Shown here: piece after piece, positions 3,335 to 19,355 of the stretch | Layout of the letters: each line of letters starts with the position of its first letter | Numbering within the stretch: position 1 is the first letter of the stretch | IMG/VR virus record: IMGVR_UViG_3300042923_001270 | Location: 1 to 43,187 of that record | Source: a virus | Reading direction: 5' to 3' (one strand) | DNA: 43,187 nucleotides | The notes under the pieces: model-generated | Database searches by the model: none | The model's input: the letters and a program-made list of their open reading frames with translations, nothing else | Told to the model about the DNA's origin: nothing | Program-made: the position numbers and the translations under genes

Positions 3335-6300
3335 CGTTCCTTCACCCCATTTGTTAACATGTCATTTTGATACTTTGTGGTCATCATACCTTCAATGTAG
3401 TCGAACTGATTTCGTGCAACTTCATAACCGTCTAGCTCACTTACTACCGTAATTTGTATAGGTTGAGTAGCTAAAGCAACCTCTAAATTATTTCGTAATT
3501 GTCCTGACATATCGAATGTACTACCATCAAGTTGTAGTTTAGGTATGGAACTATTAGCTAATATTTTTAATGCATTTCTCATGGCAGATGTTACTGTTTT
3601 AGCAATAGCGTCTACCTTCGTCTTCAATGGTCCTTCCATCACTGCTAGTCCATTCATTAAACTTTTTATAGCGTCCTCACCGATTTGGCGCATGTTAGCT
3701 GTTACTGGATTAAAGGCATCTTCTACACCGCTACGTAATTCAGTTGTCTTTTGAATCCAAACAGCCCTATATTCATCCAACTCAATAGCAACCTTTGTTC
3801 GTAAGTCTTGTATTTGATTTGCAGTACGTGCTTTAAGAGGAGCAAGCTCTGCCTCAGCTTGTTTTGCAGCTAATGAATGTTTCTCTTTCCATAGGTCTGT
3901 ATATTGAGATAACTGGCTATTTGTCATATTTGCTAAAGCTGAAATTTCTGCTTGAGCTTTTGGACCCATTGCCGTTAACTCTTCAATCAGTCCTGCATCA
4001 GCACCACGAAGTGATAATTGCTGTAAACTAGCTTGCCACGTTTTAAAGGTGTCTACTTGTCCTGTAAGGTTCTTTAATAGTCCCTCGCCTGTTACACCTT
4101 CCTTAGGTTGCATCTCGTCAAATAACCCAGCAAAGTTTGTTAGAGAAGAGGTTCTGTCTTTTAACGTCTGTTCATAAGCATCGTTTAATTTTTTCTCTTC
4201 CTCGATTAACTTGGAATTAATGTCCTGAACATTTTTTAAATAGTCATCGTTAATATTCTTCAATTCTCCATGAATGGCAATCTTGGTATCTGCTATTCTA
4301 CGATCAATTTCAAGCCATTCTTCACTGCCTTTTTTGTACTTACCATGTAAATCTCTTAAAGCATCCAATTGCTGACCTAACGAAATGTTATTGTACTTTA
4401 CCAAGTCATCGATGGCTGCTTTACCTTTTTCAAAATCACGTTTACGGATTTCTTCCTTAACTCTGAATACATTCTTCTCAGCATCAATCCGTTCTTCGCT
4501 TCCCTTTTTCGTAATAGCCATAATGTTCTTCCAACGCTTTAACTCTTCTTCTAGCGATAACTGGCCATAATATTTTTTCTTATCTATTACCGCTTTTTCA
4601 TTATCAATCTTTTGAAGTGATGTTTTCTTAGCCTCTTCAACTGCAATCTTTTGAGCCTTTTGAATTTCTAAATCAACGGTGCGGATCTGTTCTGGAAGTT
4701 TAGCATATACAGTTTTTACGGCATTTAACGAAGCAATGTATTCTTTGGTGTCAATTCTCCCTAATTTGTAGTTATCTTTGCTCTTGTCTAATTCTTCACT
4801 GAATCTTTTCTTCATGGTAGCTGCTGTTTCTTTAGCAACCTGTTCTGCCGACTTTTTAGGCTTATCACCATTTTTCTCGATACCGATTGCAAGACCTTCA
4901 TCTATATCTTTCCCAGCATCCATCATACGACGGGACGGGGATTTGATCTTGAAGAATCCAATTATAGCGTCAGCTACACCCTTAGCAACGTCCTTAGCCG
5001 CTCCTGCCGCTTTCCCTGCCAACCCCTTGATTCCGTTGATTAATCCTTGAATTGCATCCTTCCCCAGCGTTTTAAGATTGCCTGGTAACTTCACAAAGAA
5101 ATCGACTATCTTGTTGACAGTATTATCGACGATTTTCCAAATTTGAGGTGCCCCATTGTTCCAAAGGTTTTTAATGCCATCGATTCCACCCTTGAAAAAC
5201 CCACCAACTTTGGACATGCCACCCTTAAATAAAGTACCCATCATTGTCATTAGACTTCCAATACCTTTGAGTAGTCGACCTACGAATAATAGTTGGAAAC
5301 CATTCCAAATGAGCTCCCATGCTCCTTTAAGGATTTGCTGTATTCCTTCCCAGACACCTTTCCAATCACCTGTGAATAATGCAGCAAAGGTTTTAACTAA
5401 CCCTAGAATGATATTAAGAGCACCGTTAATTACGCCTTTAATATTGCCCCATATAGACTTAATAACCCACAAGACGGCTGGCATGATGAAATCAATTACT
5501 GCTTTAATTGCTTTAAATACATTAGAAATAGCCTTTAAGATTTGAGCTCCATTAGCTGCCCAAAACAATTGAATTTCCAAAACTTTATCCTGGAAAAATT
5601 GTGTTACCTCATACATTACGGATGATATGATTTGTTTAACCTTTTGGAAAACCTTCTGTACTCCATCTCTGAACGGTTCTATCTTGGCATAGGCAACCGC
5701 GAATACCGCACCTAACGCTAGGACTGCTGCTATTGCCGCTGCTATTGGTAATCCAATTGTGCCTATGGCGGTCACAACACCACCTATTCCCATTAGGAGG
5801 AATCCAATTACTGCTACAACACCGGTAAGAATACCTATAAGTGCAGCTCCAATTGCAATAAACTTTTGAGTGTTAGGAGATAAGCTATTAAACTTATCCG
5901 TTATAGATTGTAAAGCACTAGCAATCGCAGCAATAGCAGGAGCTAGAGCAGTACCAATACTGATCTGCATCGTTTCAAATGAACCTGACAATTCATCCAA
6001 TGTTCCTTTTAAATTATCTTTCATTTTTGCGGCAGCTTCAGCTGATGCACCAGCGCTGTTTTCAAGAGCTGCTGTCATTTTATCAATTTCTGCTGGACCT
6101 GCAGACATTAGTGATAGCATACCCGAAACAGATTCTTTTCCAACTAACTCAGCTAAGACTGCAGCCTTTTGTGTTTCCGTATAGCCCTCCATCGATGCAG
6201 AGAGGTTTTCAATGGTTTTTGATATTCCCACAAACTCATCGTTCTGGTCTCTCACTGACAATCCCATGGACTTCATCATTTTTCCGTTAGCCGTTGAAGG

Positions 6301-13474: not shown

Positions 13475-15157
13475 CTAATAAGTTCTTACTTTGAACATTC
13501 CTGGCTTTATTGGCGCAAGTTCTTTTAATTCGTCAACTCTGTATAATCCACAAACAAAAGCTTGGAAACCATCCGTTTTTCTACGAATCGGCTCTATCTT
13601 TTGATATTCTTTATTACCATCTTTTTTGATTACAACAAGAACGTTATTGGTGTACCAACGCATTAAAGGATTATCTCCAAATATAAACAGTTGGTTAGCA
13701 AACCCAATTTCAATTCTCGGGGCTAGTAAACTGTGAATGGCTTTCGGATTCCTAATGACTTCCACTTCAAATCCTGCCTTAACAAATAATGGCTTCAGGA
13801 TTTCCATTCGGAAATTATCCCCAATGACTTTTTTGATTTTGTAGTACTTTCGTTTCTCAACAAACCAGTCTACAATCTTCTGAGGATCTATCGTTTCTCC
13901 ATCAAGAACTGTAAGGAGACCATCCTCTTCCCATTTGCGGATTGGAGCAAATTTTTTCTTGCCTGCCGTTTCTGCATCCTGCTTTTTTGAATAACTATAA
14001 AACTTATCTACAAACTCTTTTCGAACATATGAATGCGTGATAAATGGATATTTCCCTTCTTGCTTAAACACAAGTCCACATGCTGCAAAATCTCGAATAC
14101 TAGCATAGTCTATACAACCAATACATTCTTTTCCTAACAAATCCGGAACAGTTTGGTTAGTTGCTTCGATTTCTTCCCATTTAGCTACAGCACGCTCCAA
14201 GTCAGTGATAGGTAAATTCATGCGCTTAGTCATAAATTCTTCACGGTTACTTGGATCGTCTTCTAGAGCTTCGTACTCTTCCATGATGGTATCGAGTAGA
14301 CCTTGAGCGTATTCTGTTAATGGCTTCGAAAGCATCGGGTTTGCTAATTCCCAATTGTCAGGATCATTTACTTCATTTTCATCGTTAAGTTTACAGATGA
14401 AAGGAAATAAGGCGTTGGGGCGAGCTTCACCTTTCAACACTTTCATGGCCAATGCCTTCATGTTATCTAGGAAACCGTCTCGAACATAACCATCGGTACC
14501 AATATAAAACTCTCTTGGGTTCGCCTTTTTACCAAGACCAGATATATGAACTCTAACATCTTTATTACTTTCAAACTGGTGAATCTCATCAAAGACAACA
14601 GCACCATCACGCAAACCGTCTTTTGTTTCTCCGTTCGAGGTTCTGAACTTTAAAATAGCATTCATAACCTTGTTCGTTATTTTCTCTTTTGTCCTAGCAA
14701 ACATGGCTTTTAATGGGCCACTTTTACCGATAACATTATAAGTTTCTTCAAAGGAGGTTTTTGCTTGTTCTTCTGAGTTCGCAACGATTGACACGTTGTA
14801 TTCTTTAATTCCATGAAGTGGACTAATTAAGAAATGTGTGATAACCGAAATTAAACCGTTCTTTCCAGCACCACGCGCAATAAGCCAAAGATGCTTACGG
14901 TAAAATACACGATTGTTTTTTTTATAAAATAAAAAGACGAAAGCTATGAGAAACTTATCAAATGAGACCAGTGGAAAATACCACTTCTCACCAAATCGGA
15001 TACAGTTCTCTATCATTTCGTCATCAAAATATAAATCATCACGACTGAACACATGCTCCTCTAAATATTCGATAAGCATGATGCGTTCTTTATTCAGTTT
15101 TATCTTTCCAGATTTCCAGAGATTAATATATTCTTCAACATACTTGTTAATAATCAA
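13475..15157 (-). CDS. terL: Terminase large subunit
   Basis: 560 residues. The ATPase domain has a Walker A-type loop RGAGKNG (95-101) and Walker B VVFDEIH (187-193, with the catalytic acidic pair). A nuclease domain follows with an acidic strand CIGCIDYASIRDFAACG near residue 350, and DNFRMEILKPLF further on. Together these match the phage TerL_ATPase/TerL_nuclease architecture. The start is TTG 15155-15157, overlapping the small-subunit stop (TTTGA), with no good ribosome site, so translation is probably coupled. It cuts and pumps DNA into the prohead. Confidence 0.95.
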   Translation of the reverse strand: MIINKYVEEYINLWKSGKIKLNKERIMLIEYLEEHVFSRDDLYFDDEMIENCIRFGEKWYFPLVSFDKFLIAFVFLFYKKNNRVFYRKHLWLIARGAGKNGLISVITHFLISPLHGIKEYNVSIVANSEEQAKTSFEETYNVIGKSGPLKAMFARTKEKITNKVMNAILKFRTSNGETKDGLRDGAVVFDEIHQFESNKDVRVHISGLGKKANPREFYIGTDGYVRDGFLDNMKALAMKVLKGEARPNALFPFICKLNDENEVNDPDNWELANPMLSKPLTEYAQGLLDTIMEEYEALEDDPSNREEFMTKRMNLPITDLERAVAKWEEIEATNQTVPDLLGKECIGCIDYASIRDFAACGLVFKQEGKYPFITHSYVRKEFVDKFYSYSKKQDAETAGKKKFAPIRKWEEDGLLTVLDGETIDPQKIVDWFVEKRKYYKIKKVIGDNFRMEILKPLFVKAGFEVEVIRNPKAIHSLLAPRIEIGFANQLFIFGDNPLMRWYTNNVLVVIKKDGNKEYQKIEPIRRKTDGFQAFVCGLYRVDELKELAPIKPGMFKVRTY

Positions 15158-15471
15158 ATCAGATCAGCATCCGAATACGTTTCTTCTTTAGTACGAGGGG
15201 TGTCCCCTTCACTTATAAAGTTGAATGATTTTTCGATTGCCAATAGCTGCTGGTTTACTTTCATTTTGTCATTAACGGCTGGGTGGCTTTTTACGAACTT
15301 TTGAGCCCCGTTTTCTGTTATAACGGTGGCACCTTTTTTTATTTCTTTATCCAGCTGTTTATTAAGTTTTACCAGGCTAATGTATCTCTCTACTTTTTCA
15401 ACTTCAACCAAATCATCTTTATCAATTCGGCTCATTAATTGCTTTTGAAGATCTGAAATATTTACTGCCAT
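15154..15471 (-). CDS. terS: Terminase small subunit, P27 family
   Basis: 105 residues, mostly helical, with the features of the P27-type small subunit: an N-terminal helical part with KVERYISLVKLNKQLDKEI and a conserved FVKSHPAVNDKMKVNQQLLAIEKSF segment. It should recognise the packaging site and load TerL. ATG 15469-15471 is preceded by a run of twelve G's then AAAT, which serves as an extreme but workable ribosome-binding sequence. The neighbours HNH upstream and TerL downstream support the call. Confidence 0.88.
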   Translation of the reverse strand: MAVNISDLQKQLMSRIDKDDLVEVEKVERYISLVKLNKQLDKEIKKGATVITENGAQKFVKSHPAVNDKMKVNQQLLAIEKSFNFISEGDTPRTKEETYSDADLI

Positions 15472-15704: not shown

Positions 15705-16031
15705 TCACCACCTCTCCTCATTCACAAACTTAGGTTTACCTTTTGGCTTATTCAACTCCCAAACACTCAACCGATCATGCACTTCGTTATGACACGTATT
15801 ACATAGGCACTGAAGATTATCTAAGGTCAGCGCAAGCTCTGGATGAGGTTTAACTTCTTTCATGTGATGAACACAATCCGCTTTACGATACTTACCTTTA
15901 GCCTTACATAACTGACATTCGTTGTTGTCTCTTAGCAACGCTTTCTTGCGTAAGGCTTTCCATTCCTTTGACATATAAAAGGTTATAAGCTTATCGGATT
16001 GGATTAACTTAATGATGTCTGATGTTTTCAT
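15705..16031 (-). CDS. HNH endonuclease beside terminase
   Basis: 108 residues. Two zinc-binding CxxC pairs (ECQLCKAKG at about 38-46 and QCLCNTCHNEVHD near 75-87) bracket the HNH core (DCVHHMKEV, then LDNLQCL and HNEVH). HNH proteins next to the terminase genes are needed for cos cleavage and packaging in HK97-type phages, so this enzyme probably works with TerL rather than as a homing enzyme. ATG is preceded by TTTGGAGATGTTCTAA. Confidence 0.9.
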   Translation of the reverse strand: MKTSDIIKLIQSDKLITFYMSKEWKALRKKALLRDNNECQLCKAKGKYRKADCVHHMKEVKPHPELALTLDNLQCLCNTCHNEVHDRLSVWELNKPKGKPKFVNEERW

Positions 16032-16048: not shown

Positions 16049-16073
16049 AAAAAGCACCCCATTACTGGAGTGC
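16049..16073 (-). terminator. Intrinsic terminator overlapping a stop codon
   Basis: Minus strand: GCACTCC-AGTAAT-GGGGTGC then TTTTT. The TAA stop of the zinc-ribbon gene lies in the loop. It stands between that gene and HNH/terminase, so HNH expression needs readthrough or antitermination. Confidence 0.8.
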
Positions 16074-16376
16074 ATCGGCAATATCATATTTTTCTCTTAA
16101 GGCTTGCATTTCTTGTTTATTAAGCAATACTAACTTATCAATTTTCTCGATGAGTTTCTTATGTTTTTTATGATTAGCGTTTGTTCTAATTTCAGCATAG
16201 GTTTTTTTAATCTTATCCTGCCTAGTTCTAATCTTTGCATTGGTATAGAAGGATTTATATTCTCTACTACAATGCGGACAATGAAAGAAAGCAAGGTGAA
16301 CATCTCTTTCAACTACCCTAGTTTGCAACTCAGGTAATTCAAATTCAGTTTCACATGAATCGCATTGTATACTCAT
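16062..16376 (-). CDS. Zinc-ribbon protein (104 aa)
   Basis: The protein starts MSIQCDSCETEFELPEL and has two CxxC knuckles (IQCDSCE near residue 4 and HCPHCSRE near residue 35). A basic helical tail follows that resembles a coiled coil (DKIKKTYAEIRTNANHKKHKKLIEKIDKL). This could bind DNA or RNA. I chose ATG 16374-16376; a longer frame up to 16475 is open but would run through the promoter. Similar short zinc-ribbon proteins occur near terminase in Bacillus phages. Its specific role is unknown. Its own promoter and terminator make it a single-gene unit. Confidence 0.7.
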   Translation of the reverse strand: MSIQCDSCETEFELPELQTRVVERDVHLAFFHCPHCSREYKSFYTNAKIRTRQDKIKKTYAEIRTNANHKKHKKLIEKIDKLVLLNKQEMQALREKYDIADALQ

Positions 16377-16566: not shown

Positions 16567-16584
16567 TAACTATTTTTTTAGGTA

Positions 16585-16804
16585 TTTGCGGGTAAGGATT
16601 TGCACCTTACATGGCTAACATTCCTACAACAGGTAACACCATCAGATACTTACCAAAACCCTACTTCAGCTTCTTTCAGCCTTCAGGTCCTATAATAAAT
16701 ATCCCTAACAGGTTCCTCTACAGCCTTATTCATTCCGTAGCTTGTTCCTAACCAAAGTGTATTTAGCCTTATGTTTAAGCGTCTACCTATTCCGCCACCG
16801 CAAA
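16585..16804 (-). ncRNA. Structured RNA with tRNA-like ends, about 220 nt
   Basis: No convincing gene occupies this stretch. On the minus strand the two ends form a tRNA-like body: an acceptor-like helix TTTGCGG (16804-16798) with CCGCAAA (16591-16585); then TG and a D-arm GCG-GAATAGGTAGA-CGC (16795-16779) with the D-loop GG; then a helix GGCTAA (16768-16763) with TTAGCC (16618-16613), extended by CAT/ATG; then a T-arm TAAGG-TGCAAAT-CCTTA. The D-arm closely resembles a tRNA-Leu. About 150 nt of extra sequence sit where the anticodon arm would be, including hairpin GGTAA...TTACC (16632-16654). There is no tmRNA tag, no encoded CCA and no group I core. T-loop position 55 is G, and one extra C lies between the T-stem and acceptor. 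Seen: pairing. Inferred: a functional RNA. Confidence 0.65.
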
Positions 16805-16806
16805 TT

Positions 16807-16832
16807 AAAAAGCACCCTATAAAAAGAGTGCT
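16807..16832 (-). terminator. Intrinsic terminator just before the tRNA-like element
   Basis: Minus strand: AGCACTC-TTTTTATA-GGGTGCT followed by TTTT. It starts directly at the stop of the 93-residue gene and ends three bases before the acceptor-like helix of the tRNA-like element. Confidence 0.75.
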
Positions 16833-17113
16833 TACTTGCTATTGCTTATTAAATTATATTGATCGATTAAACCATTTAACCATTTAATATCTTCTCGGTT
16901 TTTTATACTCGAGCAATGATTCAACATATTCTGAAGTAAGGTTATTTGTTGTTCATATTTCAAAGCTTTTTTACTACTTTCTGACCCACTTGTTTTCCTA
17001 TCTGGATTAGTAATTATCATTCCTAATAACCTGTTTTTAATTTCGAGCTGATTGTTTAGATAATGCATGAATTCATCTCTTTGTCTTTTATCGAAAAATA
17101 GAAACTTCTGCAA
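16832..17113 (-). CDS. Hypothetical helical protein, possibly lacking its N-terminus
   Basis: 93 residues from TTG 17111-17113, with AAGGACGGTG about ten bases upstream. The sequence is helical and charged (DKRQRDEFMHYLNNQLEIKNRLL), with a Ser/Lys-rich turn and a second helix. The same frame stays open for about 25 codons upstream with protein-like content (YQFVSNEIIIIENKDGANL) but offers no ATG, GTG or TTG before running into the upstream terminator. This suggests that the gene has lost its original start. Function unknown. Confidence 0.5.
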   Translation of the reverse strand: MQKFLFFDKRQRDEFMHYLNNQLEIKNRLLGMIITNPDRKTSGSESSKKALKYEQQITLLQNMLNHCSSIKNREDIKWLNGLIDQYNLISNSK

Positions 17114-17202: not shown

Positions 17203-17913
17203 TTAAGATATTAATTCTTTAACCATGCATTCTAAACTATTAAGATATTGGTCAACTTTCCCTTTTACTAGTCTCATGTCTGTGCTACTGTTTGTATGTC
17301 CCATATGATTTCTTATCCATGTATATATCGTTTCATTAACAGTTATTTGATTTCCTTTAATATCTTTTGTTCTTTCACACATTTCAATACTTGGAGAATG
17401 TTTAATGATATAGCTTTCAACTTCTTGTTGAGTTTCCAAAATACCATATAAAATACTATATAAAAACATATATCTTCCAAAAGGATCTGAAACATTCATT
17501 GCAGATTTATACAATCTAAAATTAATGTTATTTCTTAATTTATCAATTAACTCAACATTATTTATACTTTTCTGCAATTCTCCATATCCATCACCTAAAA
17601 TGCCATGAGAAGAAACTGAAATATTGGAATAAAGAAATACTTGGTTATTATATCTTTCTAATTCAAGATTTTTAATAACATGCCCATATAGAAATAACAT
17701 TAGATTAATTACGTCACCAAGAGGCTGAGCTGTTATTTTTTTAGCATGGTCTATATCATCATTTAAATCATTTTTAAGATTAAACTTAATATAAATATAT
17801 TTTTTCTCTTTGGTGTAAATTTCAATAGTATCAATCCCCTCTATGTAATAACTTAAAGAGATGGGTTCTATTGAATAATCGGTAAAGGTCCCACAATATT
17901 GTATAAAAGACAT
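17203..17913 (-). CDS. HEPN-type protein, possible RNase (236 aa)
   Basis: The start is ATG 17911-17913; the upstream GTG would leave no spacing to AAAGGAGA. The N-terminal 100 residues are beta-rich (DTIEIYTKEKKYIYIKFNL). The C-terminal half is helical and ends with ETIYTWIRNHMGHT, where R-x4-H matches the RNase motif of HEPN domains, especially the MauJ/ApeA-like group (RNxxGHT). HEPN RNases often serve in abortive infection. The gene has its own terminator and lies between ArpU and terminase, a usual place for cargo genes in prophages. A defence role against competing phages is inferred. The N-terminal half may be the sensor. Confidence 0.6.
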   Translation of the reverse strand: MSFIQYCGTFTDYSIEPISLSYYIEGIDTIEIYTKEKKYIYIKFNLKNDLNDDIDHAKKITAQPLGDVINLMLFLYGHVIKNLELERYNNQVFLYSNISVSSHGILGDGYGELQKSINNVELIDKLRNNINFRLYKSAMNVSDPFGRYMFLYSILYGILETQQEVESYIIKHSPSIEMCERTKDIKGNQITVNETIYTWIRNHMGHTNSSTDMRLVKGKVDQYLNSLECMVKELIS

Positions 17914-17971
17914 TTTTCTCACTCTCCTTTAGTAAGCATTCTACTTAAAGAGATAATTTCCTCCTTTTTAC

Positions 17972-18134: not shown

Positions 18135-18205
18135 AATATAAATTTAACACATTTAAACCCTAATGCTCTGCCGTCTTTCTGCCATTTTTCTGCCTTTTGT
18201 CTGCC
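18135..18205 (-). promoter_or_regulatory. Iteron-type activated promoter: four GGCAGA at 11-bp spacing
   Basis: Minus strand GGCAGA occurs at 18205-18200, 18194-18189, 18183-18178 and 18172-18167, each 11 bp from the next. A TATATT -10 box at 18140-18135 has a poor -35 (TTAGGG) 17 bp upstream, and the last iteron abuts that -35. This geometry is typical of an activator stacking on one face of DNA next to RNA polymerase. The nearby ArpU-like regulator is the natural candidate for that activator. Confidence 0.55.
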
Positions 18206-18210
18206 AGTAA

Positions 18211-18840
18211 TTATTTTTTTCCTGTTATTTCTTTGGTTAATGATTCGTATTCGTCGCTAAGTCTTCTTTCGTGTTTATCTAATTTCGACATCAATTCATC
18301 AATAAAGGTTTTTTCTATAAAATCTAAGACTTCTGGGTTCTTTTTATCTGACCTAATTTCTTCCCATACCGCATTGATAAAAGATTGGATGTCATTGAAT
18401 ATATACCAATCAATATCCGCTGAATCCTCTAAAAGCTTATTAAACTCGTCTAAGAATTCAATTAAAATCTTATGTGCATCTTCCTCTATCCTCTTTTCAA
18501 TTTTTTTATAATTTTCATCAAAACCAATGTCCCATTTTGATATTTTCCCACTTGTTTTATGGATTATATATTTAACTGACTTTAATTTACTTATTTTTAT
18601 CCCCATGTTTTGTAAAGTATTAATTTCTTGTTGTTTTTGTAAACTTAGTATTATCGATTGTTGTGATGACTTAATGGTGTATTGAACACCGATTAAAGTA
18701 ATTACTCCGCCTGTTATGGACCCCACAAAAGCTAGCACGTCAACTTCACCTAATTTGAAATTAAAAAGTATCATTAGTAATACATTAGAAAAAACTAAAA
18801 CTAAGATTATGCCTTTGTAGATTTCTTCATGAATCTTCAT
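18211..18840 (-). CDS. Two-pass membrane protein with coiled-coil domain
   Basis: About 209 residues from ATG 18838-18840; an ATG four codons earlier would abut its AAAGG. Two hydrophobic segments (GIILVLVFSNVLLMILFNFKL and VLAFVGSITGGVITLIGVQYTI) lie in the first 65 residues. A cytoplasmic helical domain with many Lys, Glu and Asp residues follows. I do not recognise a family. The design (two membrane helices plus a charged helical tail) resembles small phage exclusion or sensor proteins. It precedes the iteron promoter and a HEPN-type gene. A link between the two proteins is possible but unproven. Confidence 0.6.
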   Translation of the reverse strand: MKIHEEIYKGIILVLVFSNVLLMILFNFKLGEVDVLAFVGSITGGVITLIGVQYTIKSSQQSIILSLQKQQEINTLQNMGIKISKLKSVKYIIHKTSGKISKWDIGFDENYKKIEKRIEEDAHKILIEFLDEFNKLLEDSADIDWYIFNDIQSFINAVWEEIRSDKKNPEVLDFIEKTFIDELMSKLDKHERRLSDEYESLTKEITGKK

Positions 18841-18888
18841 TTTATATTTCATCCTTTAATGTTATATTTTTGATATTTATAGAATACC

Positions 18889-18913
18889 AAAAAAACACCC
18901 AATTAAGGGTGCT
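18889..18913 (-). terminator. Intrinsic terminator overlapping the ArpU stop
   Basis: Minus strand: GCACCC-TTAATT-GGGTGT then seven T's. The TAA stop of the ArpU-like gene is in the loop, the same design as at 16049-16073. Confidence 0.8.
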
Positions 18914-19355
18914 CTTCATTCTTGTAAACTTCAATTCTTAAAATAAATGCTAATTTATAAAATATCCTTGCCTTTAATCGATAGTATTTCCGCTCACTAT
19001 ATCCAGTATCATTATAGAGCTCATAATCATAAACTTCCTCATCGCTAAGGTATCTTTTAATAATAAGCTCCCGTTCTTTAAAAGCTAAACGATTAACAGC
19101 CTTACGGATCCATTCAATGTACTTATCACGTTCCCTTTCAAAATCCACTTTTTCAATCACTGCACTTTCTGTAGATGAATGAAACTGGTTGCTAAATGCA
19201 GGAGGACTAAGAGAATAGGATGCAGTAATCTTTGGTAGCTTCTCTTCTGGAACAGTAAGTAAATAAAAACGATATTTTTCTAATGCAGCTTCCACAGCCA
19301 TTTTTGTTTTTTCTCTATCGATTTCTGGAAGCTTAAAAGATAATTGTTCACTCAC
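18903..19355 (-). CDS. ArpU-family late transcription regulator
   Basis: 150 residues. The N-terminal part (PEIDREKTKMAVEAALEKYRFYLL) and the C-terminal sigma-70-region-4-like helices (LAFKERELIIKRYLSDEEVYDYELYNDTGYSERKYYRLK) are the two hallmarks of the ArpU family, which controls packaging and lysis genes in Gram-positive phages. Placement between the early genes and terminase is standard. The start is GTG 19353-19355, 8 bases after GGGAGG. TATTATAAC at 19371-19379 is a possible -10 box. It may act at the iteron promoter at 18.14 kb or at the 16.42-kb promoter. Confidence 0.85.
   Translation of the reverse strand: MSEQLSFKLPEIDREKTKMAVEAALEKYRFYLLTVPEEKLPKITASYSLSPPAFSNQFHSSTESAVIEKVDFERERDKYIEWIRKAVNRLAFKERELIIKRYLSDEEVYDYELYNDTGYSERKYYRLKARIFYKLAFILRIEVYKNEEHP

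Follow-up and report, generated by a model that had tools for sequence, protein, structure and literature searches.

A predicted tRNA-Leu-like RNA with exchangeable inserts in phages and prophages of Bacillota

In bacterial Y RNAs (YrlA) a tRNA-mimicking module imitates the D- and T-loops within a non-translating RNA. GOLLD and ROOL are phage and prophage RNAs found near tRNA islands, and GOLLD is raised during lysis (PMC12286853). In the A118 prophage of Listeria monocytogenes EGD-e, rli62 and rliG are candidates for small RNAs (sRNAs) from transcriptomics (PMC3556495). Here, we describe an element of tRNA-like layout in a viral stretch of 43,187 nucleotides (IMG/VR record IMGVR_UViG_3300042923_001270, positions 1 to 43,187; hereafter the window), for which an original prediction from the sequence alone had proposed a novel tRNA-like structured RNA of about 220 nt. 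Comparison with relatives shows a predicted structured non-coding RNA with a tRNA-Leu-derived shell, comprising a 7-bp acceptor stem, U8/A14, a D-arm, a 6-bp T-arm and a D-loop/T-loop contact, without a standard anticodon arm. The proposal was borne out by a covariance model, by covariation in the acceptor, T-arm and long-range helix and by the lack of any tRNA or Rfam match.

The element lies on the minus strand (16804→16585), in the orientation of the genes for the zinc-ribbon protein, the HNH endonuclease and the small (TerS) and large (TerL) terminase subunits. Every helix proposed originally was found there by inspection of the sequence, and the 3' limit is 16585, not beyond. The 5' strand of the acceptor stem (TTTGCGG, 16798–16804) pairs with the 3' strand (CCGCAAA without CCA, 16585–16591); this 7-bp pairing recurs in relatives and in the covariance model, and all seven pairs covary. 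A UG linker (positions 8–9) and a tRNA-Leu-like D-arm with a 3-bp D-stem follow (TGGCGGAATAGGTAGACGC, 16779–16797; the D-arm itself reads GCGGAATAGGTAGACGC on the minus strand); as predicted, this arm is present, and it is near-invariant in relatives. The place of the anticodon arm is taken by a mini-hairpin (CTTA-AACA-TAAG, 16768–16779). The long-range helix (5' strand GGCTAA, 16763–16768; 3' strand TTAGCC, 16613–16618) closes an insert domain of 144 nt (16619–16762; stability against shuffles z −2.5), after which come an AU linker and the T-arm (16592–16612) with loop UGCAAAU. The T-arm had been given as TAAGG-TGCAAAT-CCTTA and is present, although its stem is truly of 6 bp (GTAAGG/CCTTAC), a sixth pair being formed in most relatives; loop base 55 covaries with D-loop base 17.

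Folding of the 224-nt stretch gave z −2.17 against shuffles on the minus strand and +0.43 on the plus strand; a plus-strand reading, whose folding does not surpass that of shuffles, was rejected. As the folding energy is modest and unconvincing by itself, the case rests on comparative evidence. The window element, which was absent from the training set of the covariance model, scored 63.9 bits (E 6.4e-15). With ARAGORN the window yielded no tRNA call; Rfam 15 gave no match at the gathering score and chance-level matches only at relaxed thresholds.

The first relatives were obtained by blastn against annotated phages and plasmids, which returned short unannotated D-arm/T-arm matches in phages of Leuconostoc, Bacillus, Geobacillus, Enterococcus, Lactiplantibacillus, Weissella, Listeria and Paenibacillus. 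IMG/VR was scanned with two patterns, one of the D-arm only and one of the T-arm only, and the matches listed are a lower bound. The collection comprises at least 233 distinct elements from Bacillota phages and prophages, including Listeria PSA and Bacillus phi3T, both standard laboratory phages; none is in Rfam 15 and none was called by ARAGORN. A T-arm-only scan covering one bacterial genome for each species found 96 stretches, almost exclusively from Bacillota, and the covariance model recovered the whole element at almost all of these loci. At least nine of 399 Bacilli genomes carry it (few candidates per genome were scored), and the element is an accessory, phage-borne RNA. Weaker matches of the model in bacterial genomes (28–36 bits) likely stem from ordinary tRNA-Leu genes. 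A degenerate copy, with altered D-arm and T-loop and a still recognisable insert, occurs in the lytic Homburgvirus Listeria phage P70 (L339, 2501–2633).

The acceptor stem was assessed in 200 elements located solely through D- and T-arm sequence. Pairing reached 93.5% at register 0 versus 30–45% at other offsets, and positions 1–6 display all four Watson–Crick combinations. In 73 genome loci outside model building the covariation score was 0.608, compared with 0.169 for shuffled and at most 0.153 for slid structures. The sixth T-stem pair is present in 186 of the 200 elements; with the 7-bp acceptor, the 6-bp T-stem gives a 13-bp acceptor/T stack, so that the coaxial register of acceptor and T-arm known from tRNA is found here despite the longer T-stem. 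D-stem pairs 10 and 11 covary in relatives, and there is little or no variation at U8, A14, A15, U48, U54, C56 and A58. Changes at D-loop base 17 go with changes at T-loop base 55: among loci found via the D-arm alone, A–G was counted 63 times, G–U nine times and exceptions twice, counts that are not phylogenetically independent. The swap recurs within a single insert subfamily (L038 versus L254, L001 versus L095), and this covariation supports a predicted contact of the tRNA-elbow type. The elbow contacts 18–55, 19–56, 8–14, 54–58 and 15–48 are all represented by invariant or covarying bases. In seven variants (L022, L026, L030, L035, L053, L065 and L086) the T-loop carries an extra hairpin, UGACUAU-[ACGAG..CUCGU]-CAAAU, which itself covaries (ACTAG/CTAGT in L022, ATAGT/ACTAT in L035).

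The long-range helix had been assigned to the anticodon-arm position. In the subfamily of the window, the D-arm is followed by the hairpin CTTA-N3–6-TAAG, seen in 23 distinct relatives, and the helix begins at the last G of that hairpin. In these relatives helices of the GGCTAA/TTAGCC type reach 91% pairing in register, against 61% with shuffled partners and 25–52% in other registers. Across the whole collection, 56% of elements, versus 15% of controls, have a 6-bp helix that stops immediately ahead of the AU preceding the T-stem. The helix is thus present, covaries and encloses 144 nt, but its position and neighbours identify it as an enlarged variable arm. None of the 5-bp anticodon stem, 7-nt loop and anticodon of a tRNA is found in the window, which has the mini-hairpin instead, and in L062, at 60 nt the shortest member, an 8-nt linker replaces the anticodon arm. 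The anticodon arm is vestigial, or absent as in this member. The covariation that had been proposed as a check on the acceptor, GGCTAA/TTAGCC helix and T-arm was therefore seen in all three.

A decaying tRNA-Leu gene, possibly intron-bearing, would explain the tRNA-Leu-like D-arm and the weak model matches to what are likely ordinary tRNA-Leu genes. Decay is, however, at odds with compensatory acceptor pairs, a 6-bp T-stem and a coupled 17:55 change kept across many phages, and Rfam models of group I/II introns matched neither the window nor 20 related loci, in agreement with the predicted lack of a group I core. Decay was refuted as a general explanation, for which we see next to no likelihood; single degenerate copies such as that of P70 do occur.

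The insert varies from 8 to 232 nt and the whole element from about 60 to more than 280 nt. The extra domain of about 150 nt proposed originally is indeed a large insert, but it is hypervariable and exchangeable between phages rather than a conserved domain. The window insert has relatives among a minority of members only, e.g. L095, L291, L004 and L112. A conserved open frame, which would have told against the proposal, was sought and none was found; insert sequences are non-homologous between phages, with conservation present within any single insert type. Compared with shuffles, inserts have a modest excess of structure (mean z −0.71). The sequences of PSA and LP-101 match almost completely across rli62, acceptor and D-arm, and diverge from there on. 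One and the same insert may be found with different acceptors (L007/L141, L164/L168), and a version of the phi3T element (about 82%) is carried by unrelated Goe3-like myophages. The pattern in these sequences is one of cassette exchange inside a constant shell. Single contigs may carry two different copies with unrelated inserts (L167, 7602–7811, 10 nt apart; L176, 22–876; L175; L135; L220).

Insert exchange within inverted repeats is also what a DNA element, i.e. a recombination or attachment site, would display. G–U pairs, loop bases conserved in the manner of tRNA tertiary contacts and an orientation mostly shared with neighbouring genes all speak for RNA instead, and we regard a DNA element as very improbable.

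The usual place of the element was shown to be between a late activator (ArpU/RinA/Alt) and HNH/terminase genes, usually co-directional and often followed by an intrinsic terminator. The gene in front frequently encodes a late regulator (PHROG 36 in 15, 248 in 12 and 2198 in five of 46 cases; the families overlap), and the following genes include HNH and terminase. An intrinsic terminator lies within 400 nt downstream in 94 of 215 cases (44%), compared with 19 (9%) in shuffles. Ordinary tRNAs were found within 600 nt of 42 of 193 elements, and in Goe3 and Lenus the element is inside tRNA arrays. In the Listeria phages vB_LmoS_188, LP-101 and PSA it is preceded by a co-directional rli62 or rliG, 4–50 nt away, and mcrA RNA follows it in LP-101 and PSA; Listeria A118 has rliG without the element. 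When loci were chosen via the ArpU or HNH protein of the window, the element was present in none of 63.

Several further structures were noted. In SPbeta, yonN and yonK are separated by about 1.7 kb in which no gene is annotated (L341, 1335–3015; SPBc2 59153–60833); this stretch is partly conserved in phi3T downstream of the element and has a DUF3800-VIII RNA match and further hairpins. Directly downstream of an Enterococcus element, an unannotated structure (L006, 2145–2235) is closed by another long-range helix, TAGCAAC/GTTGCTA. In the viral contig L219, a tmRNA gene (4252–4603, minus strand, 62 bits) accompanies about ten tRNAs and a copy of the element.

In the window, where all the parts described below lie on the minus strand, an ArpU-like late transcription activator (18903–19355; phrog_248, E 1.7e-39) comes first. 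A probable ArpU-dependent late promoter (18137–18205) consists of four GGCAGA iterons 11 nt apart (18205–18167) followed by the −10-like GTTAAATTTATA; 0.00 occurrences of the pattern were expected, and the region is 81% conserved across 72 nt in two viral contigs (L347/L348). Iteron promoters upstream of elements in general barely exceed block shuffles and the late promoter is therefore claimed for the window alone; in L220, too, GGCAGA iterons precede the element. The ArpU gene of the window is separated from the element by two genes (17203–17922 and 18211–18852), which have the look of accessory insertions in the late control region; one of them weakly matches the MauJ domain (PF17419). An intrinsic terminator (AAGCACTC-TTTTTATA-GGGTGCTT-TTTT, 16805–16840) abuts the 5' end of the element; the terminator scan gave a hairpin of −10.5 kcal/mol ending 6 nt before it. 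Downstream, as predicted, are the zinc-ribbon, HNH and terminase genes: a zinc-ribbon protein directly after the element (16062–16376; phrog_1315, E 7.6e-23, weak Zn_ribbon_4), an HNH endonuclease (15705–16031; phrog_119/144, Pfam HNH), TerS (15154–15471; phrog_2343, E 6e-35) and TerL (13475–15157; phrog_9, E 1.2e-133, Pfam TerL domains).

This arrangement could be that of a cis-acting late-operon leader, in which the element and the following terminator set read-through into HNH/terminase, in a layout like that of the lambda late leader (Q) and the HK022 put RNAs. The place between late activator and TerS/HNH, the strong enrichment of downstream terminators, the iteron-type late promoter upstream in the window and the terminator joined directly to the 5' end of the window copy and of a few other elements are in keeping with such a leader, which we nevertheless hold to be rather unlikely. 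Lytic myophages carry the element inside their tRNA arrays, and it also occurs in tandem and as several separate copies; close relatives with ArpU, HNH and terminase lack it; and neither exchangeable inserts of 8–232 nt nor a tRNA elbow would be needed by a cis-regulator. A packaging RNA working with the terminase/portal motor, like phi29 pRNA, would account for the proximity to HNH/cos/TerS in many phages and to portal genes in Goe3. Its probability is low indeed, given a size of about 60–280 nt, unrelated inserts despite near-identical neighbourhoods, the missing element in close relatives with the same HNH and the lack of an RF00044 match in the window.

Tentatively, and at somewhat under an even chance, we favour a late trans-acting phage RNA in which the tRNA-Leu-derived shell serves processing and stability and the insert is the effector. 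Late in infection, the element would be transcribed with the late genes from the activator-dependent late promoter, and the shell would fold the nascent RNA like a pre-tRNA. Host enzymes of tRNA-end processing could then excise and stabilise the RNA, RNase P acting at the 5' end and RNase Z, as on Bacillota tRNAs without CCA, at the 3' end. It would act in trans: a common host partner would take hold of the constant elbow, and effector function or specificity would lie in the exchangeable insert; inserts may be swapped between phages through recombination at the conserved D- and T-arms. The tRNA-Leu D-arm is invariant whereas acceptor and insert are free, which suggests recognition of the elbow by a host partner. 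Downstream terminators point to a discrete RNA, as do copies present more than once, in tandem or repeated, within a single phage (L167, L175, L176). Transcription of the region is suggested by rli62 and rliG, the sRNA candidates just 5' of the element in Listeria phages. Proximity to tRNAs, the Goe3/Lenus arrays and transfer of the phi3T element to Goe3-like myophages point to independence from one operon; taken together, these observations favour action in trans over a cis leader.

Several results weigh against this trans-acting RNA. Acceptor base 1 shows no preference for G (about one third) and just 60% have A at position 73, a weaker signature than a canonical substrate of RNase P or LeuRS would have. 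Among 130 non-redundant inserts there was no universal motif and there were no extra T-arms, and the inserts of the window, LP-101, PSA and vB_LmoS_188 showed complementarity to their own phage genomes not above that of shuffles. With a terminator immediately 5' of it, the window copy would be reached solely by read-through. Finally, the absence from all 63 loci of close protein relatives makes the element optional or dispensable and restricts how far it can be regarded as belonging to late control itself.

A tRNA mimic or decoy without anticodon, put forward originally beside antitermination as a possible role, might titrate a host tRNA-binding factor or a tRNA-targeting defence, its inserts being under diversifying selection. 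The full elbow with a tRNA-Leu D-arm (invariant A14, U8, A15/U48, U54/A58, G19/C56), the nearby tRNA genes and the hypervariable insert of near-identical phages are compatible with this. The anticodon loop, which is the part read by most known tRNA-targeting nucleases, is missing here, however, and a 13-bp stack with free acceptor sequence fits a single fixed tRNA target poorly; we consider a decoy unlikely. Many Bacillota tRNAs have no encoded CCA and receive it afterwards; the uncoded CCA of the element, taken together with the base 1 and position 73 frequencies, argues against a simple charged tRNA-Leu mimic. A wider form of the trans-acting reading, possible though doubtful, is a natural 'tRNA scaffold' system of Gram-positive phages, in which a host-matured shell would display exchangeable RNA effector domains late in infection, with cassettes swapped in competition with host defences or other phages.

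As tRNA and anticodon calls, a tag, the tmRNA model, G3–U70, an intron, pRNA, GOLLD and ROOL all failed, the sequences are provisionally treated as a new RNA family. The literature, searched in part, nowhere describes the element, and a mention among the 224 candidate RNAs of a 2017 paper is possible. The family would be a covariation-supported one, carried by hundreds of Bacillota phages and prophages and apparently unannotated until now. It offers an entry point to the question of why late control regions crowd non-coding RNAs (rli62, rliG, mcrA, skipping-rope and DUF3800-VIII RNAs, tRNAs). We know of no other RNA family that combines wholesale insert replacement between near-identical phages with a conserved tRNA elbow.

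Among known systems, tmRNA (RF00023) shares a tRNA-like head and a large insert closed by a long-range helix, and may be phage-borne, as in L219. The tmRNA-like layout of the original prediction holds as far as a long-range helix beneath a tRNA-like head; the likeness is one of layout only, because the element has a D-stem and, as had been noted, no tag reading frame, it lacks a conserved pseudoknot core and a tmRNA model match, and its third acceptor pair (3:70) is U–A in the window rather than G3–U70 (mostly UA/AU/CG/GC in relatives). YrlA resembles it in D-/T-loop mimicry; unlike YrlA, the element is phage-borne, its ends form an acceptor stem, it has no Rfam match, and no Ro/Rsr gene was seen among the families listed for its neighbours. 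GOLLD and ROOL share the setting of a phage RNA near tRNAs, but are large (GOLLD often exceeds 800 nt) and ornate with Rfam models of their own, whereas the element is small, has a tRNA shell and matches neither. The RNAs rli62 (RF01486), rliG (RF02415) and mcrA RNA (RF03010) lie adjacent in the same late control region and on the same strand, as separate families none of which covers the element. Compared with tRNA-Leu, a class II tRNA, it lacks the 5-bp/7-nt anticodon arm, is called neither by ARAGORN nor by the Rfam tRNA model, and differs in its 6-bp T-stem, its T-loop (mostly UGCAAAU with D-loop base 17 = A) and its insert of up to 232 nt. With tRNA-Leu the shell shares the 7-bp acceptor, U8-G9, the GCGGAA..GG..AGACGC D-arm with A14, the T-arm and the variable-arm-like helix.
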